DNA of 64,000 nt from Aliarcobacter sp. (GTDB taxonomy: Bacteria; Campylobacterota; Campylobacteria; Campylobacterales; Arcobacteraceae), in contig JAQTXB010000011.1 in NCBI GenBank assembly GCA_028688995.1, forward strand, positions 1 through 64,000, in the 5' to 3' direction. Positions 9,724 to 59,965 of the stretch are shown in pieces. The notes beneath the pieces are model-generated. The model saw nothing but the letters and a program-made list of their open reading frames with translations. It made no database searches and was not told the DNA's origin. A program made the position numbers and the translations under genes. Numbering within the stretch: position 1 is the first letter of the stretch; each line of letters starts with the position of its first letter.

Positions 9724-12309
9724 ATGTTAAAAGATATAGTAAATTATAAGGGTATAAATATTAAAAAAGAGCTATATCCCATTATTAAATATATTGAAGA
9801 TGTTGATAAATATAAAGATGAATTAGGAACATTAAACTCTTCATGGGATATGTTAGCATTGTTGGGACAACTTGGTGATATAAATATAGATATAGGAAAA
9901 ACAAAAGAGAATTTTTTAAATTTAACTTCAACTTTATTAAATCACTTAAGTGAACAACAAATAAAAAAAGTAACCCAAGAGATGAAATTTAAAGCTCAAG
10001 TTGCTATTGATGTACTAATTAGAAACCTTTTTGAAAGAACAGCTGATATTGGTTTTTTAGCAACGGATAATGATATTAGAACTTTTATACAAAGTTATGT
10101 TTCAAAATATAATGATGAAAGTTTAATCTTACGAGAAAATATTCAAAAAAGATTTAAAGAGTATGTTTCTAAATACTCTGTTTATTTTGATGTTGTTTTA
10201 CTTGATAATCATGGGAAAATTCTGGTTAGATTAAATGATGATATAAAAGTTGAAAAAGTTGATGTTTCATTTGTTCAAAAAGTATTAAATTCTAATGAAG
10301 ATTTTGTTGAAACATATAAATATCATGATTTTGTTCCTCAATATAAAAAATCATTAGTTTATTCTTATAAAGTTACAAAAACAAATGACTCAACTTCAGA
10401 TAATTTAGGAGTTTTAGCTCTTTGTTTTAGATTTACAGATGAGATGAATGGAATTTTTAATAATTTAGTCGATACAAAAAATAAAGAGTGTCTTACAATT
10501 TTAGATGAAGATGGTTTTGTAATAGCAAGTAGCGATAAAGACCATATAAATTTAGGGGTAAAATTACCAATAATTTTAAATGAGAATTATAAAATTATAT
10601 CATTTGCAGGTCGTGATTATTTAGCAAAAACTTGTAAAACAAATGGTTATCAAGGATTTCATGGACTTAAATGGTATGGACATATAATGATTCCTTTAGA
10701 TTATGCTTTTTTAAGTGATGAGTTAAATTCTTCAACTGTTGATTTTAATATTATTAATTCTATGATGGATAATGAACAACATTTTTCAAAAGAGTTAAAA
10801 GAAGTTTTTTATAAAAGTAAAACTATACAAGATAATTTAGGTCGAGTAATTTGGAATGGAAATATTGCTCAAAGTAAACTAAATTCTGTAAATAGAGAGT
10901 TCTCTAAATCTTTATTAAATGAGATTGGAGTTACTGGAAATAAAGCAAATTCATCACTTAGTAATCTTAATCAAACAATTATCTCTTCTATTTTAAAAGA
11001 TAGTGAATTTTTATCTTCACTTGCAATTGATATTATGGATAGAAATTTATATGAAAGAGCGAATGATTGTAGATGGTGGGCAATAACATCATATTTTAGA
11101 GAGGCTTTTGATGATTATAATAGCTTAGCATATAAAAAAGAAGAGATAAGAAGCATCTTACACTATATAAATGGTTTATATACAGTGTATACAAATATTT
11201 TAGTTTTTGATAAAAATGGAAAGGTAATAGAAGTATCAAATAGAAATTATGAATATTTAGTTGGAAAAATCCTAACACAAGAGTGGGTAGGAAAAACTTT
11301 AATGTTAAGTGATACTTCAAAATATTGTGTTTCAAAATTTGAAAAAACTCCATTGTATGACAATGAACCAACATATATTTATAGTAGTGCAATTAGATCT
11401 TTAAAAGATGAACGAGTTGTAACAGGTGGAATTGCAGTTATATTTGATTCAACTCCTCAATTTAATGCAATGCTTGATGAGAGTTTACCAAGAGATGTGG
11501 AAGGAAATAAAATACCTGGAATTTTTGCACTTTTTACAAATAAAGATAAACAAATTATTTCATCTACAGATGATAATTTTCCAGTAGATTCATATTTAAA
11601 TATTGATGATAAATTTTTTACTCTGAAAAATGCTCAACAAAAAAGCCAAATAATTGAGTTTAATAACAATTATTATGCTGTTGCTGTTAAATGTTCAAAT
11701 GGATATAGAGAGTATAAAAGTAGGGTAGATGATTATAAAAATGATGTTTTATGTTTTGTATTTATTTATATAGGTAAAAAAGATTGTAATGTCTTTTTAG
11801 ATAGTTCGAAATCTAAATTTTCTACAACAATAAAATCAAAATTCACTGATACAAGTGTAGAGTTAGCAACTTTCTATCTAGGTAAGAAGTTTTTAGCAGT
11901 AAATGCTAAAAATATAATCGAATCAATTGGAATTGAAGAGTTACAAGCATCTATCGATATGGATAAAAAGAATCATTTTAAAGGAATGGTTTTACATAAA
12001 GATAAATTAGTTGCAGTGTTAGATATTAGAGATTTTGTAAATGAAGAGATTACTGATGAAAAACTAACTAATATTATTTTAGTTGAATATGACAAAGACA
12101 ATATTGAACATTGTGTGGGAATTTTGGTCTCTTCTTTAGAAACTGTAAGTGTAGTAGAAGAAAAATCAATCCAACATATTCAAAATCATTTCTTAGGAAG
12201 TGGAACTTTAGTTGAAAGTATAGTTGATATAAATGATTTAGAAGTTTCAAAAGTTGCAATGGTTTTAGATATTAAAAAAATAGATGAGAATCTAACAAAA
12301 AGGATTTAA
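9724..12309 (+). CDS. Soluble protein with duplicated Cache-type module and CheW domain
   Basis: An 861-residue protein with no convincing membrane segment or signal peptide. It contains an internal duplication of about 340 residues: RNLFERTADIGFLA at 100-113 and RNLYERANDCRWWA at 440-453. Each is followed by a region that reads like a Cache ligand-binding fold (VVLLDNHGKILVRLN, then TILDEDGFVIASS in the first copy; ILVFDKNGKVIEVSN in the second). The last 160 residues resemble CheW (ATFYLGKKFLAVNAKNI, FKGMVLHKDKLVAVLDIR). CheW joins chemoreceptors to CheA, so this protein could feed a cytoplasmic signal directly into the array without being an MCP. It stands alone with its own RBS (AGGAAA) and a palindrome upstream. 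Confidence 0.75.
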   Translation: MLKDIVNYKGINIKKELYPIIKYIEDVDKYKDELGTLNSSWDMLALLGQLGDINIDIGKTKENFLNLTSTLLNHLSEQQIKKVTQEMKFKAQVAIDVLIRNLFERTADIGFLATDNDIRTFIQSYVSKYNDESLILRENIQKRFKEYVSKYSVYFDVVLLDNHGKILVRLNDDIKVEKVDVSFVQKVLNSNEDFVETYKYHDFVPQYKKSLVYSYKVTKTNDSTSDNLGVLALCFRFTDEMNGIFNNLVDTKNKECLTILDEDGFVIASSDKDHINLGVKLPIILNENYKIISFAGRDYLAKTCKTNGYQGFHGLKWYGHIMIPLDYAFLSDELNSSTVDFNIINSMMDNEQHFSKELKEVFYKSKTIQDNLGRVIWNGNIAQSKLNSVNREFSKSLLNEIGVTGNKANSSLSNLNQTIISSILKDSEFLSSLAIDIMDRNLYERANDCRWWAITSYFREAFDDYNSLAYKKEEIRSILHYINGLYTVYTNILVFDKNGKVIEVSNRNYEYLVGKILTQEWVGKTLMLSDTSKYCVSKFEKTPLYDNEPTYIYSSAIRSLKDERVVTGGIAVIFDSTPQFNAMLDESLPRDVEGNKIPGIFALFTNKDKQIISSTDDNFPVDSYLNIDDKFFTLKNAQQKSQIIEFNNNYYAVAVKCSNGYREYKSRVDDYKNDVLCFVFIYIGKKDCNVFLDSSKSKFSTTIKSKFTDTSVELATFYLGKKFLAVNAKNIIESIGIEELQASIDMDKKNHFKGMVLHKDKLVAVLDIRDFVNEEITDEKLTNIILVEYDKDNIEHCVGILVSSLETVSVVEEKSIQHIQNHFLGSGTLVESIVDINDLEVSKVAMVLDIKKIDENLTKRI

Positions 12310-14225: not shown

Positions 14226-14867
14226 TTATGCTAAAGCATTGAACATATCAGCTGTAACTTCTGAAACATCTTTTGTTCCATCAAGTTCCATAAATACACC
14301 CATTTTTGTATAAAAATCAATTAATGGTGCTGTTTGTGTGTGATAAGCATCAAGTCTGCTAATAACAGTTTCAGCGTTGTCATCTTTTCTGATAATTAAT
14401 TCACCACCACAGTAGTCACACTCATTTTCTTTTTTAGCTGGATTAAATTCAACATGGAAAGATGCTCCACATTTTGAACAAACTCTTCTTCCTGTAATTC
14501 TTCCAACGATTAATTCATCAGGAACATTTAAAGAGATTACTTTATCTAAAGAGATACCCATATTTTTCATTAGTTCATTTAAAGCCTCAGCTTGAGCTAA
14601 AGTTCTTGGAAAACCATCAAGAATGAAACCATCTTTACAGTCAGACTCAGCTAATCTATCTTTAATAATACCAATAATAGTTGAATCAGGAACTAATTTT
14701 CCCTCATCCATGAATTTTTTTGCTTCCATTCCCATATCTGTTTTATCAACAATAGCAGCTCTTAAAATATCACCAGTTGAAATTTGTGGAATGTTATATT
14801 TTTCAATTAAAAACTTTGCTTGTGTTCCTTTACCAGCACCAGGTGCTCCAAATAGCATTAAATTCAT
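14226..14867 (-). CDS. adk: Adenylate kinase, long form with zinc-type LID
   Basis: A 213-residue adenylate kinase that converts AMP and ATP to two ADP. It shows the P-loop GAPGAGKGTQ (residues 7-16), STGDILR, DGFPRTLAQAE, and a full LID (about 120-160) with four cysteines (CSKCG and CDYCG) that should hold a zinc ion. The zinc LID is common in Gram-positive and some other bacteria. Campylobacter has a shorter enzyme instead, which is present next door at 14999 on the other strand. This long copy may therefore be an acquisition. Its start is 131 bp from that of the neighbour, with divergent promoters between. Confidence 0.93.
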   Translation of the reverse strand: MNLMLFGAPGAGKGTQAKFLIEKYNIPQISTGDILRAAIVDKTDMGMEAKKFMDEGKLVPDSTIIGIIKDRLAESDCKDGFILDGFPRTLAQAEALNELMKNMGISLDKVISLNVPDELIVGRITGRRVCSKCGASFHVEFNPAKKENECDYCGGELIIRKDDNAETVISRLDAYHTQTAPLIDFYTKMGVFMELDGTKDVSEVTADMFNALA

Positions 14868-14998: not shown

Positions 14999-15568
14999 AT
15001 GAAAAAATTATTTCTAATTATTGGAGCACCTGGAAGCGGTAAAACCACGGATGCAGAATTAATTGCTGTAAGACATAATAATATTACTCACTATTCAACT
15101 GGAGATATGTTTAGAGCTGAAGTTTCAAGTGGAAGCCAAAGAGGTCAAATAATTGAAACCTTTATAAGTGCTGGTAATATCGTACCAATTGATATTGCAA
15201 TTGAGACAATTTTAGGAGCTATTAAAAGAGCTTCAACTGATATTGTAATTATTGATGGCTATCCAAGAAGTATTGAACAAATGGTTGAATTAGATAAATA
15301 TTTAGTAAATGAGAGTGAAGTAAAATTAATAAACTGTATTGAAGTTGTAGTTTCTGAAGAAGTTGCACGGGATAGAGTTTTAGGGCGAGCAAGAGGTACT
15401 GATGATAGTGTTGAAGTATTCAACAATAGAATGAGAGTTTATGCAGAACCATTGGCGCAAATTCAAGAGTTTTACACAGCAAAAAATTTATTAAAAAAAA
15501 TAGATGGTGAAAGAACAATTGAAAAAATTGTAACTGAAATGGATGAATATATCCAATCGAAAATCTAA
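14999..15568 (+). CDS. adk: Adenylate kinase, short Campylobacter-type form
   Basis: A 189-residue NMP kinase with P-loop GAPGSGKTT (about 8-16), [25 protein letters not shown] and a short lid ([11 protein letters not shown]). It is very close in pattern to the adenylate kinase annotated in Campylobacter jejuni, which likewise lacks a zinc LID. It is thus probably the ancestral housekeeping enzyme of this lineage. The RBS AAGGG (14989-14993) can pair with CCCCTT about 12 bp upstream, so start access may be modulated. The CinA-like gene follows after 3 bp. Confidence 0.85.
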
Positions 15569-15571
15569 GTT

Positions 15572-16333
15572 ATGTGTGAGAAAAAAGTAAATTTCTACTC
15601 AGTTATAATAGGAACTGAACTTTTAAATGGGCGTCGAAGTGACGCTCATTTTGCTTTTTTGAACCAACAACTTTTAAGTCGAGGTTGGGAACAAAAAGCC
15701 TCTTTTGTAATAGGTGATGACACCAAACTCATGTTAGATGTTTTTAATCTAATAAAATCTGACCCAAATTCTGTAATGTTTAGTTTTGGAGGAATTGGCG
15801 CAACTCCCGATGATTATACAAGAGAGGTTGCTGCAAAGGCTTTTACTAATGGTAACTTAGAGTTTCATAAAGAAGCAAAAAATAGAATCATAAATCAGTT
15901 TGGTTCTGAAGCTTATCCCCACAGAATAAATATGGCATATCTGCCAATAAACGCAAAACTTCTTAAAAATGTTGTAAATAATGTAGCAGGATTTTATCTA
16001 GAAGATAGATTTTTCTTTACACCAGGATTTCCATCAATGAGCCAAGCAATGGTTGTAGAAGCTTTAGATAAACATTATTCTAAATCAAATCTTGAAAAAT
16101 ATAGAAATACTATGACTATAGAAACAAGTGAAAATGATTTGATTGATACTATGAAAAAGATTCCTTCACATCTTGATTTTTCTTCATTACCTAAAATAAT
16201 AGGAGATAAAAGAAAAGTTGTAATTAGTCTTGCTGGATATAATAAAGATGAGGTTGATAAATATTTTCAACTATTTATTGAGTTTTGTGAAAAGAATAAA
16301 AAAGATTTTATTTTAAAAGATATAAGTAAATAA
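15572..16333 (+). CDS. Molybdopterin-binding / CinA N-terminal-like protein
   Basis: A 253-residue protein with the MoCF-like fold seen at the N-terminus of CinA. It has VIIGTELLNGRRSDAHFAFLNQQL near the start, MFSFGGIGATPDDYTREV at about 70-90, and FFTPGFPSM near 150. The typical C-terminal nicotinamide-mononucleotide deamidase domain of CinA is absent, so this is the stand-alone form, and its substrate is not known. It starts 3 bp after the short adk and probably shares its transcript. It ends 79 bp before the defence operon, where an AT-rich gap with no clear terminator lies. Confidence 0.8.
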   Translation: MCEKKVNFYSVIIGTELLNGRRSDAHFAFLNQQLLSRGWEQKASFVIGDDTKLMLDVFNLIKSDPNSVMFSFGGIGATPDDYTREVAAKAFTNGNLEFHKEAKNRIINQFGSEAYPHRINMAYLPINAKLLKNVVNNVAGFYLEDRFFFTPGFPSMSQAMVVEALDKHYSKSNLEKYRNTMTIETSENDLIDTMKKIPSHLDFSSLPKIIGDKRKVVISLAGYNKDEVDKYFQLFIEFCEKNKKDFILKDISK

Positions 16334-16412
16334 ATAATTTATCTTATTAAAAAATTATTATTTTATAAAGTTTTAAATTGTAGAATAATAATAATTTTTA
16401 ATAGGAATAAAT

Positions 16413-17114
16413 TTGGATAAAATTTTTCAAAATTTAGGTGAAAGATTCACTAATTTTTTTACTCGTTCTGTCGCTCCCTCTTCAATCTTTTTTGTATTAC
16501 TTTTTTTCAATGATAAATTTTATAATTGTAGTAATATTTATAATGAGTTCATTAAATGCATAACCCAAATAAAAGATATAAATCAAATATTTTTATATGT
16601 AGTATTGACTATCATATTTTTAGCTTATGGTTATACAAATCAAATATTTTCTCAAATATTAGATAATTTAATTAAGAAAAATTATGAGTTTGATTTATCA
16701 TCTAAAAGTCATAAACAATATAAATCTTTAAGAGAAAATGTTAAAGAAAAATTATCAACTTCTGAAAAAGAAATTTTTGAAGTTATTGATTTTCATGATT
16801 ATAATGCTTATCAAGTTTTAGGAAAAGTCTTAAACAATAATACCTCTTATGTTGATGATATAAAAAATATTCATACTTTATTTATTGCAATTTCTTTAAA
16901 TACAATTTTACTTTTTACATATTTTCATAATGAACTTTTACCTTTATTGATAATAGTGATTCCTATATTTTTGGGAATTGAACATCTTTATTCTAAAACT
17001 AGATATATGGCTAGAAATAAAAGAATGTATATAAATTATTTATTAACTAAAGATAAAAAGAAAAATGAAAAAGAGATAAAAATAAAATCAATAAAGGTAG
17101 AAGTAGATGAATAA
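16413..17114 (+). CDS. Membrane protein of the RADAR-type operon
   Basis: A 233-residue protein of no family I can name. Hydrophobic segments lie at about 22-32 (SSIFFVLLFF), 57-75 (FLYVVLTIIFLAYGY), and a paired stretch at 153-192 (LFIAISLNTILLF and LLIIVIPIFLGI). Between them is a charged cytoplasmic-looking region (about 85-135), and the tail is rich in lysine. The start is TTG (16413) preceded by AGGAAT. Its end overlaps the start of the ATPase gene by 8 bp, so the two should be translated together. Published RADAR loci sometimes carry a membrane protein (SLATT or Csx27 type). This one fits that place in the operon, but I cannot confirm it belongs to either type. Confidence 0.65.
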   Translation: MDKIFQNLGERFTNFFTRSVAPSSIFFVLLFFNDKFYNCSNIYNEFIKCITQIKDINQIFLYVVLTIIFLAYGYTNQIFSQILDNLIKKNYEFDLSSKSHKQYKSLRENVKEKLSTSEKEIFEVIDFHDYNAYQVLGKVLNNNTSYVDDIKNIHTLFIAISLNTILLFTYFHNELLPLLIIVIPIFLGIEHLYSKTRYMARNKRMYINYLLTKDKKKNEKEIKIKSIKVEVDE

Positions 17115-19731
17115 TGAAATTATTATAAATATAAATGAAGCAAATAAAGCACAAAAGTATCAAAAAAAAGAAGAGCTTTTTCAAATAGAAGCTTTTGAAA
17201 AAGTTTCTAAGATTTTGCATGAACATAATGTTGGCAATAATACAAATGATATAACAGATTGTAGATTTCATGATACTATTTTTATTGATGGTGATAGAGG
17301 TGTAGGAAAAACTGCTTTTATGATAAATATAGAAAACTATTATAAAAAATATTTTACAACTGAGACAGCGGAAAATAAAAATGAAAATAAAGGAAATTTT
17401 ATCTTTTTAAAACCAGTTGATCCAACACTTTTAGAACATACGGAAAAGTTTTTAGGAGTGGTTTTTGGAAAAATTGTAGAAATAGTATCAATGCGTTTGA
17501 AAAATAATAGTATAGATGAAAATAGTTATTATTTTGATGATGATTGTAATATAAAATCTAAATTTGAGAATCAAACAAAACATTGTATAGATAGTTATTA
17601 TAGAGCTCTTGAAAATCTATCAAAATCTCTTGGAGCAGTGTCATCTATTGAAAATAAACAGAGTGCTGGAATAGAAGAGATAGCTTCATATAAGTCAAGT
17701 TTAAAGTTAGAACAATATGCCCATGAATTTTTTCAAGTGGTTTGCAAGATGTTTGGTGTAAATGCTATTGTAATGCTCATAGATGATGTAGATATGGCAT
17801 TTGATAAAGGTTTTGATGTACTTGAAGTTGTGAGAAAATATTTAGCTTCACCTTATCTTATACCAATTGTTGCTGGAGATATGAAACTTTATAGAGAAAT
17901 AGTTGAAACAAAATTTATAGAAAAAATAAAGTTCTATGAAGATGTAAAATATATGAAAGATTTAGATTCAAAATTTATAGAAAGTAAAGAATATAAAGAT
18001 AAGTTACAACTTTTAAATAATCTTGTAAAACAATACTTGCATAAAATTTTTCCAAATGAATATAGAATAGAATTAAAAAATATTTTTAGAATTATTAGAG
18101 AAAATTTAGTAACAGTAAAATTAGGAAATTTGGATATTCCATTTACAGAAATAAAAGATTTTGAGATTCGACACTTAAATTTTGGCATCAATCAAAAACA
18201 GTTTACATTTAAAGTATTTGAAGATAATACAAGAAAAGTAATTCAATATTTAACTTCTAAAAAAGAAATATATAGTAATTTTTTTAGAAATATAGATTAT
18301 TCAAAAAATGCCAAATATGAATCATATCTACCACAAAAAGTAATGGTTAAATACGATGAATTTATAGTATCTTTCATACAAACAATTTATTATAAAAAAT
18401 CACTTGAAATAACATATAATATTTTACAAGATGAAAAAGATAATAAATTATCAGAATTTTTAGCAAATGATTTAAATTCTAAATATTTAATGTCTGATGA
18501 ATTAAGAAATATATTACAATATAAAGAAAAAGAAAGTAGAGATTTTGTAATTCAATATACTAATTTAAAAGATATTTTAAAAGTGGCATCTACTCATCAA
18601 GATTTAGAAAACTATATATTAAATCTTTTTATTTATAACGATTATATAAAAGGTAACCATCATCAAACTAAAAATTATATTTATTCTGGAAAATTTATAC
18701 AATGTATGATTTTCAGTTTATTTATAAAAGAAAAAATAGAGCTAAATACAGAAGAAATTCAATTAATACTAAATAAAATACAAAGTATAGATTTAGACTT
18801 TCTAATAAATAATGGAGATTATGAAATTTATTCAATGATTTTTAATGATGATTCTGAATATTTCAAAACGCAAAATATAGATATAGATTTTTTAGAATTG
18901 TCCTTTATTATAAATAGTGTTCCATTTAATTCTAGTAAAATTGATGATAAATCTGATAACAATAATGGAATTGAAGAAGAAGTAGTTGTTGATTATAAAA
19001 CATTTGATTTATCAAAAGATTTAATTTTATGGAAAAATATTTTTGCAAAGAATTTGATATTAAATAGTACAACTTTATATAGAATATTGGATAAGTTTTA
19101 TGAAAATTTGAGTTATATGAAAAATCAGAAATTAAATGATTCTCCTCTTGAATTTTTACAAAGAATAGTATTGATTTTTATAAATTCAGTTGCTTTTTTT
19201 GAAAGTACAAATCTTAAAATTGCAAATACAAATATTGCGATAGGAGATAAATTTGATTTGACAATAGCTTTAACAAAAACAAATGCAGCAACTTTAAATA
19301 TTAAACCTTTGATGAATAAAGAATTAACATTAACAAAAGCATTGTTTTTTCATCCAATTATTTCTCACATTTTATTTCCTAATAACGATTCAAAACTTAA
19401 ATCTTTAAGTTTTACTAATTTAATGAGTGATTTAAAAGATAAAAAAGATAATGAAGATAAAAAAGAATTATTTAATAATATATTTTATAAATATTGGCAA
19501 AAAATAGGTCATTACAAAAGAGGCTTACCTCAAATGATGAATCCAATTGATATTTGTAAAAATTATTTCAGAGAAATTAATAAAAATATTGATAATAATT
19601 CAAAAAAATTTTTAACAGTCCCTTCTAGTAAATATGTATTGACTTATAAATTTATAAAAGAAAATGTTTCAGATAAAGATAATGAATTAGAAACTTTAAT
19701 GAAAAAATATCAAGATTTAGTTACTAAATAA
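17107..19731 (+). CDS. rdrA: RADAR-type ATPase RdrA
   Basis: An 874-residue P-loop ATPase. Walker A is GDRGVGKT at residues 62-69 and Walker B is VMLIDDVD at 222-229; the remaining 640 residues are helical, charged and not like other common ATPases. The size, early Walker A site, and position immediately before a roughly 900-residue adenosine-deaminase-like gene are the defining features of RdrA. RdrA forms a large ring that works with RdrB in RADAR anti-phage defence. Its start overlaps the membrane protein gene by 8 bp and its stop overlaps the rdrB start by one base (TAATG). Assignment is by context and motifs, not alignment. Confidence 0.85.
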   Translation: MNNEIIININEANKAQKYQKKEELFQIEAFEKVSKILHEHNVGNNTNDITDCRFHDTIFIDGDRGVGKTAFMINIENYYKKYFTTETAENKNENKGNFIFLKPVDPTLLEHTEKFLGVVFGKIVEIVSMRLKNNSIDENSYYFDDDCNIKSKFENQTKHCIDSYYRALENLSKSLGAVSSIENKQSAGIEEIASYKSSLKLEQYAHEFFQVVCKMFGVNAIVMLIDDVDMAFDKGFDVLEVVRKYLASPYLIPIVAGDMKLYREIVETKFIEKIKFYEDVKYMKDLDSKFIESKEYKDKLQLLNNLVKQYLHKIFPNEYRIELKNIFRIIRENLVTVKLGNLDIPFTEIKDFEIRHLNFGINQKQFTFKVFEDNTRKVIQYLTSKKEIYSNFFRNIDYSKNAKYESYLPQKVMVKYDEFIVSFIQTIYYKKSLEITYNILQDEKDNKLSEFLANDLNSKYLMSDELRNILQYKEKESRDFVIQYTNLKDILKVASTHQDLENYILNLFIYNDYIKGNHHQTKNYIYSGKFIQCMIFSLFIKEKIELNTEEIQLILNKIQSIDLDFLINNGDYEIYSMIFNDDSEYFKTQNIDIDFLELSFIINSVPFNSSKIDDKSDNNNGIEEEVVVDYKTFDLSKDLILWKNIFAKNLILNSTTLYRILDKFYENLSYMKNQKLNDSPLEFLQRIVLIFINSVAFFESTNLKIANTNIAIGDKFDLTIALTKTNAATLNIKPLMNKELTLTKALFFHPIISHILFPNNDSKLKSLSFTNLMSDLKDKKDNEDKKELFNNIFYKYWQKIGHYKRGLPQMMNPIDICKNYFREINKNIDNNSKKFLTVPSSKYVLTYKFIKENVSDKDNELETLMKKYQDLVTK

Positions 19732-22454
19732 TGCTTAAAAATAACCTAAAAGACATTTCAAATATCGTACTTCTTAGAAGTGATAAGATATTGTATGAGT
19801 TATTGTCAAATGAGACCTTTATAGATAATAAAAGCAAGGCTTATGAGTATGGAGTGAGGGATTATTATCCAAATAGTTTTCGCAAAGGAACTATGGACGA
19901 TAGTATTAAATATACTTTGGATAAAAATCAAACTTCAAAATTTACATTGGATTATGAGTTTGATTTTTTGGATAGTTTATTTGATGAGTATTTGAAATTT
20001 GATGGCAATCATATCTATGCAAAAAGTGAAATATTAGATAAATATAGCTCTGTGATAAACAAAATTCACCCCTTTAATATTATTGGGTATAAATTAGCCT
20101 CAAAACTTAGACAAAATAGTGTAAATATACAGAATATCAAAGATTATGGCAAATATATCACTCCATTGGCTTTTAGTGTAAATAGAGAATTTAAAGAATA
20201 TGCTGAAAATCATATCCATTTAGGTGGGAGCAATACAGAATCACTTAGTTTCATAGCCTTACTTTCAAATTCAACTAATAAAGAGTTTTATAGCTATGAA
20301 ATATTAGATAAGCTTCCAAGAATCAATGAATTTTCATATATCAATAATGGTCATTATTCTTTTGGAGTTTTGATTGATATTGCTAAATATTGTATAAGTG
20401 TAATAAATAGTGAGTTTTTAGGATGGGAAAGAGATAAAAATATTTTAGATAATTTACAAAAATTGGCTTCTTTTGGAAGATTATCGATGATTGATACGGA
20501 TTTTGCTTCTATTTATATAATAGATAAAATGCAGATGAATATACAAAATGAACTTTTAAAAGAGGCATTTGTTTACAAAAAAGGTGGTTATGATAATAAG
20601 TTTTGGTTTATATATAACATTTTAATATTTGATTTATACTTAACTACAAATGATAAAGCCATAAGAGTAGCTATCAAAGTTTTTTTACATATTATAAATA
20701 TTTTGCGTTCATATATGTTGATGTCTCAAAATCTTGGGCTTAGTCATTTTTCTGAGTTTTCAAGTTCAAGTTTACGAAGACAAGAACAAAAAAGATTTCA
20801 AAATGTAGCTTCAAATATCATCTCAAATGGTACAACAAAAGTTGAAGCGAAGATAGCACCAAATGCAGTTTTTGATGGTGAAATTTTAGCTTATAAAGTA
20901 GCTTTTGATAAAGAGATAATCAAAAGAGAATCTGTAAATATAGAAAAATCTCATCATAAATATTTTTTAAATACCAATCACTCGAAACGAAATTATCATT
21001 TTTGTGTGCATTTTATAAGAAAAGATGAAAGAACAAAAAAAACTTGTTTAGGAATGAGTCTTTATCGATTTTATTATCTCAGAGAAGAGTTAAAAAAAGA
21101 AGCTATCAAAGTCAATAATTTTTTATATCAAGAATCTCATATCGTAAATAAATTTGATTTTTATAGGAAGTTTTATTATAACAAAACACGAGTATTAGAA
21201 CATCAAAAAGATTTAGAAAATGATTATATTGATTTAACAAAACTAATAACTACAATAGATATTGCAGGGGATGAAAATAGAACTCCTCCTGAAGTTTTTG
21301 CCCCTATTATTAAGTATTTACAAAGAGATATAAAAAAACTTGATGAGTTTAAAGCTGATTATATAAAATACCAAAGAGATGGACATGATTTTGTGGAAAA
21401 CTATAAATTAAGACTTTCAGTTCATGCAGGTGAAGATTTTAATCATATTGTTACAGGTATGAGAAAAGTTCATGAAACAGTTAAGTTTTATGGTATGGGT
21501 GATAAAGATAGATTAGGTCATGCACTGGCAATTGGTCTAAATCCTAAAAAATGGTGTGAACTAAATGGAGATATTTTTGTAACTAAACAAGAACATTTCG
21601 ATAATTTAGTGTGGCTTTATCATCAAAGTATAGAAGTTTTACCATATTATAAAAATGCGGATAAATTAAGAGAAAAATATGCACGAGTTATAAAAGAGCT
21701 TTACAAAGAGATATATTTATTAAAAAATGAAGAATTAAGTTGTGAAATAGAAGATATGTATAAGGCTTGGAAACTTAGAGAATTTTGTCCTATTGTAATG
21801 TTTTCACAAGATGAAATGTTAAATAAAGCAGATGAATATCTAAAAATTGCAAATTTTGACAATCAAAAATTATGTGAAGAAGAATATAAAAAAGCTAAAA
21901 AAATTTATCATAAATATCATACTTGTGAAACTGTTAGAAAAAAAGGCGATGAGGTTATAAAAATAGAGTATGAGGATACATATAGAAATTTATATAAATA
22001 TTTTATTACAGATGAAGATTTAGAACTTATAGAAGCCGTACAAGATAGACTTATCCAAAAGTTTTGTGATAACGGAATTATCATTGAAACAAATCCCTCT
22101 TCAAATGTTTATATTGCTCATATTCACTCTTATGATAAGCATCCAATATTTAGATGGAATCCTATTGAAGATGAAGATTTATTTATTGACTTAAAAAAAG
22201 AAAATGAAAAAGAAAAGCCAAAATTTAATAAATTTGGTATTAGAACATCAAGAATGAAAGTGTGTGTAAATACAGATGACCCTGCGATTATGCCAACAAC
22301 TCTACGAAATGAGTTTGATTTATTAACTAGAGTTGCTTCTGAAAAACATAGTAAAAATAGAGAAAATATTGAAAATTGGTGCGAAAATATTAGAAAATTA
22401 GGAATTGAAATATTTGATTATGACCATCAAAAAAGTGAGTTTAGAAGAGTTTAA
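19731..22454 (+). CDS. rdrB: RADAR-type adenosine deaminase RdrB
   Basis: A 907-residue protein carrying the adenosine-deaminase metal and catalytic motifs in order: HIHLGG at residues 161-166, HAGED at 565-569, RLGHAL at 594-599 and NTDDP at 847-851. Ordinary adenosine deaminase is about 350 residues. Here roughly 400 residues lie between the first and second motifs, the large insertion typical of RdrB. All metal ligands (two His of HxH, His of HAGE, Asp of DDP) are intact, so it should be active. RADAR was first reported to edit adenosine to inosine in RNA during infection; later work points to ATP and dATP deamination. The stop lies 2 bp from that of the convergent sel1 gene. Confidence 0.88.
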   Translation: MLKNNLKDISNIVLLRSDKILYELLSNETFIDNKSKAYEYGVRDYYPNSFRKGTMDDSIKYTLDKNQTSKFTLDYEFDFLDSLFDEYLKFDGNHIYAKSEILDKYSSVINKIHPFNIIGYKLASKLRQNSVNIQNIKDYGKYITPLAFSVNREFKEYAENHIHLGGSNTESLSFIALLSNSTNKEFYSYEILDKLPRINEFSYINNGHYSFGVLIDIAKYCISVINSEFLGWERDKNILDNLQKLASFGRLSMIDTDFASIYIIDKMQMNIQNELLKEAFVYKKGGYDNKFWFIYNILIFDLYLTTNDKAIRVAIKVFLHIINILRSYMLMSQNLGLSHFSEFSSSSLRRQEQKRFQNVASNIISNGTTKVEAKIAPNAVFDGEILAYKVAFDKEIIKRESVNIEKSHHKYFLNTNHSKRNYHFCVHFIRKDERTKKTCLGMSLYRFYYLREELKKEAIKVNNFLYQESHIVNKFDFYRKFYYNKTRVLEHQKDLENDYIDLTKLITTIDIAGDENRTPPEVFAPIIKYLQRDIKKLDEFKADYIKYQRDGHDFVENYKLRLSVHAGEDFNHIVTGMRKVHETVKFYGMGDKDRLGHALAIGLNPKKWCELNGDIFVTKQEHFDNLVWLYHQSIEVLPYYKNADKLREKYARVIKELYKEIYLLKNEELSCEIEDMYKAWKLREFCPIVMFSQDEMLNKADEYLKIANFDNQKLCEEEYKKAKKIYHKYHTCETVRKKGDEVIKIEYEDTYRNLYKYFITDEDLELIEAVQDRLIQKFCDNGIIIETNPSSNVYIAHIHSYDKHPIFRWNPIEDEDLFIDLKKENEKEKPKFNKFGIRTSRMKVCVNTDDPAIMPTTLRNEFDLLTRVASEKHSKNRENIENWCENIRKLGIEIFDYDHQKSEFRRV

Positions 22455-22456
22455 AT

Positions 22457-23125
22457 TCACTTAACCGGCACATTATAATCCCCAATTTTAAAACCTTCAT
22501 CTTTGGGATATTTAAATAAATTGTAGTCTTTCCATACTTTTACACAAAGTTTATTACCTTTTTCATATTCATCTTTCGCAAAGGCATTAGCTCTTCCAAA
22601 ATTTGGGAAAACTCCTGTTCCACTTGCATACATATAAGCAATATAACAGTTTGCATCATACTCTTTTTGTTTTGAAGCTAGTTTGAAATAGTATAAGGCT
22701 TTTTCATAATCTTTTGGAACTACTCCACCTAATAAAAAGAATTTAGCAAGCATAAGTTGTGCTTTTGCATTATTTTGATTTGCAGCATCTACAAAAGTGT
22801 TGTAAGCTTTTTTTTCATCGTAAAATATTGTTTTATTTGAAAGATATAATTTACCCAAAAGATAAGTAGATTCACTATTTCCTAAATCTGAGGCCTTTTG
22901 AAAAAGTTCTTGTGCTTTATTTACATTCCTAGCAATTCCATCACCATTTAGATAGATAAGTGCCAGTTCATGTATTGCTTTTGGGTTATTTTCATTTGCC
23001 AATTCTTTATAACCACTAAGGGCTTTCATACTTCCTTCAACCTTTTGAATAGTATTAACTTCCTCAAAAGTTAAGGCATTTAGAAAAGTTCCTAAGATGA
23101 TTAAAAAGAACAGGCTTTTTTTCAT
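22457..23125 (-). CDS. Sel1-repeat periplasmic protein
   Basis: A 222-residue protein with a Sec signal peptide ([17 protein letters not shown]) followed by about four Sel1-type TPR repeats. Examples are [39 protein letters not shown] and [14 protein letters not shown]. Such proteins act as protein-binding scaffolds in the periplasm, and many Campylobacterota have several. Its ATG overlaps the alr stop (ATGA, 4 bp), so it belongs to the uvrC-alr transcript. Its stop is only 2 bp from the rdrB stop. Confidence 0.85.
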
Positions 23126-58261: not shown

Positions 58262-59965
58262 ATGAAGATGTCAAAAGAAAAATATGCTTCAATGTATGGA
58301 CCAACTGTTGGTGATAGATTTAGACTTGCCGATACTTCATTAATCGCTAAAATTGAAAAAGATTACACAACTTACGGTGAAGAGAGTAAATTTGGTGGTG
58401 GAAAAACTATCAGAGATGGAATGGCTCAAAGTCCAACGGCTGTTGAAGTAGCTGATTTGATTATTACAAATGCAATAATTATTGACTACACAGGTATTTA
58501 TAAAGCTGATATTGGAATCAAAGATGGAATTATAATTGCCATTGGAAAATCAGGAAATCCAAACTTATGTGATGGAATCACTCATGGTTTAGAAATTGGA
58601 GCAAATACTGAAATACTTTCAGCTGAGGGAAAAATCATCACAGCTGGAGCAATTGACACACATATCCACTTTATAAGTCCAGGTCAAATTGATGAAGCAC
58701 TCGCAAGTGGAGTTACTACCATGATTGGTGGAGGAACTGGTCCAAACACTGGAACAAATGCTACAACTTGTACACCAGGGGCTTGGAATATAGCAAAAAT
58801 GATTCAAAGTGTGGATGATTTACCTTTAAACTTTGGATTTATGGGAAAAGGAAATAGCTCATCAAAAGAGGCTTTGGAAGTTCAGATAAAAGCAGGAGCT
58901 ATGGGGCTAAAACTTCACGAGGATTGGGGAAGTACTCCAAATGCCATAGATACTTGTTTAAGTGTAGCAGATAAGTATGATGTACAAGTTGCAATTCATA
59001 CTGATACTCTTAATGAATCAGGATTTGTGGAAACTACGGTTGGCTCTTTTAAAGATAGAACAATTCATACTTTCCATAGTGAAGGAGCTGGTGGTGGGCA
59101 TGCCCCTGATATTATAAAAGTAGCAGGTATGGCAAATGTACTTCCATCAAGTACGAATCCCACATTACCATACACAAAAAATACAATAGAAGAACACCTT
59201 GATATGCTTATGGTTTGTCACCATTTAAGTCCAAAAATTCCAGAAGATGTAAGTTTCGCAGAATCAAGAATCAGAGGAAAAACAATAGCAGCTGAAGATG
59301 TACTGCATGATATGGGTGCAATTTCAATCACAAGTAGTGATTCACAAGCCATGGGAAGAGTTGGAGAAGTATTAATACGAACATGGCAAGTTGCAGATTC
59401 TATGAAACAACAACGAGGAATCTTAGCTGGTGATGATGAAAAAAGTGATAACAATAGAATCAAAAGATATATCGCTAAATATACAATAAACCCAGCCATT
59501 GCTTCAGGAATTGATGAATATGTGGGAAGTGTAGAAGTTGGAAAAATGGCCGATTTAGTTTTATGGAATAGGGCATTTTTTGGAGTGAAACCAGAAATCA
59601 TCATCAAAGGTGGATTTATCGCTCTTGCTTTAATGGGTGATTCAAATGCTTCTATTCCAACACCAGAACCAAGTATGTATAGAAAAATGTTTGGAAGTTT
59701 AGGAAAAGCAAGTGCAAAAACAAGTGTAATATTCACTTCAAAAGTAGCCCTTGAAGATGATTTGGATGTAAAACTAGGAATCAGCAAATCAATGTTAGCA
59801 GTTAAAAACACAAGAAATATAGGTAAAAAAGATATGAAGTTAAATGACTTTATAGGAGATATAAAAGTAGATCCAGAAACTTATGATGTAACAGTAAATG
59901 GTGAAGCAATAGAGTCAAACTATGTATCAGTAGTTCCAATGGCTAAAAAATATTTTATGTTTTAA
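58262..59965 (+). CDS. ureC: Urease catalytic alpha subunit
   Basis: A 567-residue amidohydrolase with the full nickel site. HIHFISPGQ gives two His, the carbamylated Lys is in GLKLHEDWG, a His follows in HTDTLNESG, another in [16 protein letters not shown], the catalytic His in MVCHHLSP and the Asp in [12 protein letters not shown]. It hydrolyses urea to ammonia and carbamate. Called UreB in Helicobacter. The length is normal and nothing is disrupted. It is followed, 48 bp later, by a toxin-antitoxin pair instead of ureE-ureF-ureG. Confidence 0.97.

Follow-up and report, generated by a model that had tools for sequence, protein, structure and literature searches.

An apparently intact, divergent three-gene RADAR operon with a predicted anti-phage role in Aliarcobacter

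Is the pair formed by a very large ATPase and a deaminase in a genome of Aliarcobacter sp. a RADAR system, and is this pair the whole of it? The window, that is, the entire stretch of DNA analysed here, is 64,000 nucleotides long (contig JAQTXB010000011.1), and an earlier note, made from the letters alone, had placed a complete RADAR operon of two genes in the interval 16413-22454. Both rdrA and rdrB are indeed there, and intact. However, the map of open reading frames (ORFs) divides the interval into three overlapping plus-strand ORFs, M, rdrA and rdrB: position 16413 is the TTG start of M, a separate ORF of 233 amino acids, and not that of the ATPase, and "complete" turns out to be an understatement, since a third gene, coding for a membrane protein, belongs to the operon. 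The overlap between M and rdrA is 8 bp. The one between rdrA and rdrB, already seen in the note, is a single base, at 19731: the ORF of 907 residues at 19731-22454 starts at the last base of the rdrA stop codon. The genes rdrA and rdrB are thus adjacent and in tandem, in this order, likewise in the RADAR systems of Escherichia coli and Citrobacter rodentium (8fnt, 8fnw, 8hr7, 8hr8; PMC9994260) and in four relatives of the window, where RdrB identity is 65-75%. The nearest relatives (Arcobacter caeni, Arcobacteraceae) agree with the assignment of the genome to the Campylobacterota. We conclude, with little room for doubt, that the locus is an intact, divergent RADAR operon of three genes with a predicted anti-phage role. 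The RADAR system itself is already known; the additions are the membrane gene M and the exchanged C-terminal half of RdrA.

The identity of the pair was put to profile searches, which uphold it (E = 5e-69 for RdrA, 7e-164 for RdrB). The deaminase, encoded by rdrB (19731..22454, plus strand, 907 aa), matches the NCBIfam model NF041744 over residues 32-899 (E 7.3e-164) and the PADLOC model of RdrB (E 2.8e-92). The NCBIfam score is 547 bits, below the naming cut-off of 800 bits, which the RdrB of A. salmonicida passes; models of ordinary adenosine deaminases do not exceed 34 bits. When the protein is compared with the sequences of the PDB, the only strong matches are the RdrB chains of solved RADAR structures. 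An ordinary adenosine or AMP deaminase, or a Cad1-like CRISPR effector, sitting beside an unrelated ATPase would also produce the weak matches to adenosine deaminase and CARF-ADA models that are seen at the common active site, but the RdrB models are ahead by more than 500 bits and over the full length, there is no match to a CARF domain, and the neighbouring ATPase is an RdrA by profile and by fold. The probability left to this alternative is negligible, and ordinary adenosine or AMP deaminases and CARF-deaminases are ruled out by scores and coverage. Judged by its sequence, the deaminase is RdrB.

The four adenosine-deaminase motifs reported in the note are all present, on the plus strand: HIHLGG, starting at residue 161 (20211..20228), with the zinc ligands H161 and H163; HAGED, starting at residue 565 (21423..21437), with the zinc ligand H565 and the catalytic E568; RLGHAL, starting at residue 594 (21510..21527), with H597; and NTDDP, starting at residue 847 (22269..22283), with D849 and D850. 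They were compared in an alignment of 22 RdrB sequences, among them sequences from an E. coli chromosome and from plasmids of Vibrionaceae, Rhizobium and Fusobacteriota. The seven residues have counterparts in all, or almost all, of the 21 other proteins, H161 and H163 being invariant in the 22, which, together with the open frames, bears out the claim that the metal ligands are intact and no frame is broken. In the RdrB tree, the protein groups with Campylobacterota RdrBs in a clade of 5 rows with strong support (99/100). One claim has to be corrected, that of a single insertion of about 400 residues in the deaminase. The distance from HxH to HAGE is about 402 residues and the one from RLGH to DD about 252; the same spacings are about 197 and 57 in an ordinary adenosine deaminase (mouse ADA numbering). 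The extra length of RdrB would rather come from roughly two expansions of about 200 residues each.

The ATPase is encoded by rdrA (17107..19731, plus strand, 874 aa). Its Walker A motif, GDRGVGKT, is found at residues 62-69 (17290..17313, plus strand), where the note had put it, and is supported by the RdrA alignment. The Walker B residues D226-D227, in LIDDVD (17782..17787, plus strand), followed by a sensor-1-like D258 in VAGD, align with the RdrAs of E. coli/Salmonella and A. salmonicida. The protein matches the NCBIfam model NF041743 (E 5.4e-69) and the PADLOC model of RdrA (E 1.9e-40), mainly in its N-terminal half. Its 233 bits are below the curated NCBIfam cut-off of 600 bits, which is a naming threshold and not a defining trait. 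The RdrAs of A. salmonicida and Salmonella are above it, but A. caeni and L015, both close relatives, have RdrAs that miss it too, so that on sequence grounds the low score marks divergence, not non-membership.

Because the sequence match lies mainly in the N-half, the C-half was tested separately. In a profile-profile comparison (hhalign), the alignment with gammaproteobacterial RdrA has a probability of 99.9% and spans 630 columns, C-half included, up to column 739 of 884. An AlphaFold model built with 14 sequences is of moderate quality (pLDDT 70), with low confidence after about residue 770. The 20 best matches of this model in a Foldseek search of the PDB are all RdrAs, and the published RdrA ring, a comparison that the note had proposed, is matched over most of the length: the alignment with 8hr8 (VIA) gives Z 25.4 and rmsd 4.1 over 592 aligned residues, in the interval 4-771 of the model, and the one with 8fnt gives Z 23.0. 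The best structure other than RdrA is BrxC, with Z 12.6, and it covers the ATPase part only. The profiles and the predicted fold both identify the ATPase as RdrA, C-terminal helical lobe included. The other half of the profile check proposed in the note has the same outcome, with the deaminase falling in RdrB and not among ordinary adenosine or AMP deaminases.

The likeness to the systems of E. coli and C. rodentium extends to the AAA+ fold with its C-terminal helical lobe and to the zinc and catalytic residues of the deaminase. However, the proteins are distant: compared with the E. coli system L058, RdrB is about 24% identical, and the N and C halves of RdrA about 28% and 17%. In the RADAR systems compared by Duncan-Lowey et al. 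(PMC9994260), protein identities amount to only 22-28% and conservation is confined to the active domains, and the divergence of the pair in the window fits this pattern. Two further differences are the length of the crown stretch of RdrA, 115 residues in the window versus 93 in E. coli and C. rodentium at the same aligned positions, and the extra membrane-protein gene upstream.

This gene, M (16413..17114, plus strand), encodes 233 amino acids and is identified by its ORF and by conserved homologs at five loci (L015, L016, L033, L034 and L035). Its TTG start is plausible, because the remnant of the gene in A. caeni has the same TTG and the aligned codon is ATG in both L015 and L016. Three to four transmembrane helices are predicted, at about 21-38, 53-71, 153-171 and 175-193, in two pairs with a loop of about 70 residues in between, and the C-terminus carries the conserved motif RY.ARNKR.YINYLL. 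In a search of 399 genomes of the order with an M profile, strong matches occur in 6 of the 15 RADAR-positive genomes and in none of the 384 others, and all of these copies are located at rdrAB loci; the Fisher test of this association, which ignores the relatedness of genomes, yields p 9e-10. Weak matches elsewhere (E 1e-4 to 9e-4, partial or in broken frames) were treated as chance for some 400 genomes, and a search of the whole phylum is consistent with the order-level result. The gene is upstream of rdrA in the window, L015, L016 and L033, divergent in L034, and overlaps the end of rdrB in L035. At L033:2890-5010 (G041), the space between M and rdrA holds, on the opposite strand, the gene of a 706-residue protein with a C-terminal FGE-sulfatase domain. 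The genome G056, a MAG, contains three different RADAR-like loci; in one of them, at L016:8001-10703 (G056:C53), the RdrB frame is broken by one in-frame TAA, reflecting either a pseudogene or an assembly error.

Most RADAR loci are without M. In A. caeni, about residues 1-48 and 161-233 are left around an internal deletion, and in the genome of L017 only the last 30 residues or so; rdrAB is intact in both. Missing from most of these loci and decayed beside intact rdrAB genes, M is not essential, and its distribution points to a real but dispensable RADAR partner. The two decayed copies, together with the very high A+T content of the operon in the window (rdrA has a GC content of 21%), might be read as signs that the whole is a decayed or inactive remnant of RADAR. 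However, M, rdrA and rdrB all have open frames in the window, the catalytic residues are all intact, and third codon positions are the most changed in every gene compared, which makes a remnant very improbable and an intact operon the preferred reading. A scan for promoters and terminators gave no excess over shuffled sequences.

To which family, then, does M belong? Three RADAR subtypes, rdrAB, rdrABC with Csx27 and rdrABCD with SLATT, are named in a commentary on the discovery paper (PMC7699616) and in reviews (PMC7699616, PMC11676413). Csx27 has about 200 amino acids and transmembrane helices (PMC8209922), not far from the 233 amino acids and 3-4 helices of M, and the rdrABC systems resemble the operon studied here in joining a small membrane protein to RADAR. 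It is thus conceivable that M is a divergent Csx27-family protein, or RdrC, and the operon a member of the known rdrABC subtype, a question that concerns the identity of M only. Against this, neither M nor its five homologs have a match in Pfam, NCBIfam or PADLOC, libraries in which the presence of a Csx27 model is unconfirmed. Makarova et al. reportedly gave Csx27 four transmembrane helices in 2019. We regard the chances of a Csx27 identity as even.

SLATT, the other candidate, has in its favor the RADAR locus of the Aureibacter tunicatorum plasmid pAT1 (L054), where rdrB is directly followed by a SLATT gene, in the position occupied by M in L035; both systems combine RADAR with a small membrane protein. 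However, hhalign gives the M family and this SLATT protein a probability of 0.2%, Pfam has no SLATT match for M, and M, with its 3-4 transmembrane helices and the loop of about 70 residues between pairs, differs from the SLATT protein, which has two. That M is a SLATT-type accessory (RdrD) is thus highly unlikely; the profile comparison rules it out. Nor does M have a match in PHROGs or among PDB sequences, and searches of plasmids recovered no M. A more ambitious conjecture makes M the founder of an undescribed, RADAR-specific family of multi-pass membrane proteins, distinct from both SLATT and Csx27, that would give the system a membrane arm (a sensor, an anchor or a pore), with the C-half of RdrA as an exchangeable phage-recognition cassette. 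Taken as a whole, we consider this conjecture rather doubtful.

Another gene may also be associated with RADAR. In two sister RADAR loci belonging to distinct genera, a PAPS-reductase-domain gene (PF01507, about 490 aa) is directly beside rdrAB (L038:2850-4331 and L039:1631-3100), once overlapping the start of rdrA and once tail-to-tail with rdrB.

We now turn to the site of the operon in the chromosome. The whole insert, or cassette, covers 16334..22456, or 6.1 kb, and is flanked by two conserved genes, one MoCF/CinA-like (15572-16333) and one Sel1-repeat-like (22457-23125, minus strand). In the sister species G013, G004, G017 and G029, which lack RADAR, the site is empty, with the two flanking genes 10-13 bp apart, and in A. 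caeni (L014, NZ_MUXE01000001) it holds RADAR, as in the window. In G020 it is occupied by a GGDEF/EAL-type protein, and in another sister species, G014 (L081:957-2423), by a probable nucleotidyltransferase/HEPN toxin-antitoxin pair with an ORF of 266 amino acids, the protein and the pair being named from motifs by eye. Since G014 carries other cargo, the comparison of these sequences identifies the site as a variable cargo position. A search for tRNAs in the window was negative, and no convincing repeats flank the cassette. RADAR is present in 15 of the 399 genomes of the order, and it is described as rare, in less than 1% of genomes (PMC9994260). Neither RdrB nor M was found in IMG/VR contigs, nor RdrB in INPHARED phages. 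Two adenylate-kinase-like genes adjoin the site (14226-14867, minus strand, and 14999-15568, plus strand), with the same flank in A. caeni; their proximity to a cargo that would deaminate ATP is probably coincidental.

The comparison of the two occupied sites reveals a mosaic. The window and A. caeni have RdrBs that are 75% identical and RdrA N-halves that are 72% identical, but their RdrA C-halves (about residues 300-874; 18004..19728, plus strand) are only 25% identical and represent different modules; the drop in identity occurs between about residues 290 and 400. A. caeni and L015, on the other hand, are 67% identical in the C-half as in RdrB. The trees conflict accordingly: the RdrB tree pairs L015 with L017 (100/99), and the RdrA C-half tree pairs L015 with A. 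caeni (100/100). The downstream flanking genes are common to L015 and L017. There are thus two cases, L015 with L017 and the window with A. caeni, in which loci that share a site differ in their type of C-half. The simplest reading of these sequences is that the fast-diverging C-half is exchanged as a module by recombination. Duncan-Lowey et al. suggested the C-terminal lobe of RdrA as a possible phage sensor (PMC9994260). The exchange pattern fits sensing by the lobe and lends it independent evolutionary support, short of proof.

In E. coli, RdrA forms a heptameric ring whose crown docks on a dodecameric RdrB, and ATP and dATP are converted to inosine nucleotides (PMC9994260). Given the conserved residues of the pair and the fold of RdrA, the same mechanism is likely here, phage defence itself being carried over by analogy with E. 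coli. RdrA would assemble into an AAA+ ring of seven subunits, and RdrB into a large deaminase shell; a phage product might be detected by the C-terminal lobe of RdrA, upon which the ring would dock on RdrB; the deaminase would turn ATP and dATP into ITP and dITP, and these would poison the nucleotide pools until phage replication stops. As an optional partner, M might anchor the complex to the membrane, regulate it, or act as a second effector that disrupts the membrane, choices that amount to a guess because the model of the protein is poor (pLDDT 61); a Foldseek search with this model returned only noise (best E 0.99).

At the time the structures appeared, the phage trigger of RADAR had not yet been identified. 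The loci of the Arcobacter group offer a natural experiment in this respect, in which similar RdrBs and similar ATPase halves of RdrA, at one chromosomal site, go with different C-halves. The linked gene M raises the question of a membrane-bound branch of RADAR.

Two observations concern other parts of the window. A match to the Rfam 5' ureB sRNA (RF02514, 74.5 bits) at 58410-58692, on the minus strand, is antisense to the ORF 58262-59965, likely ureB itself, and may be due to conservation of the coding sequence and not to an sRNA. At 9724-12309, a protein of 861 amino acids has Cache-domain matches in each of its halves and a CheW domain at its C-terminus, an unusual chemosensory layout.
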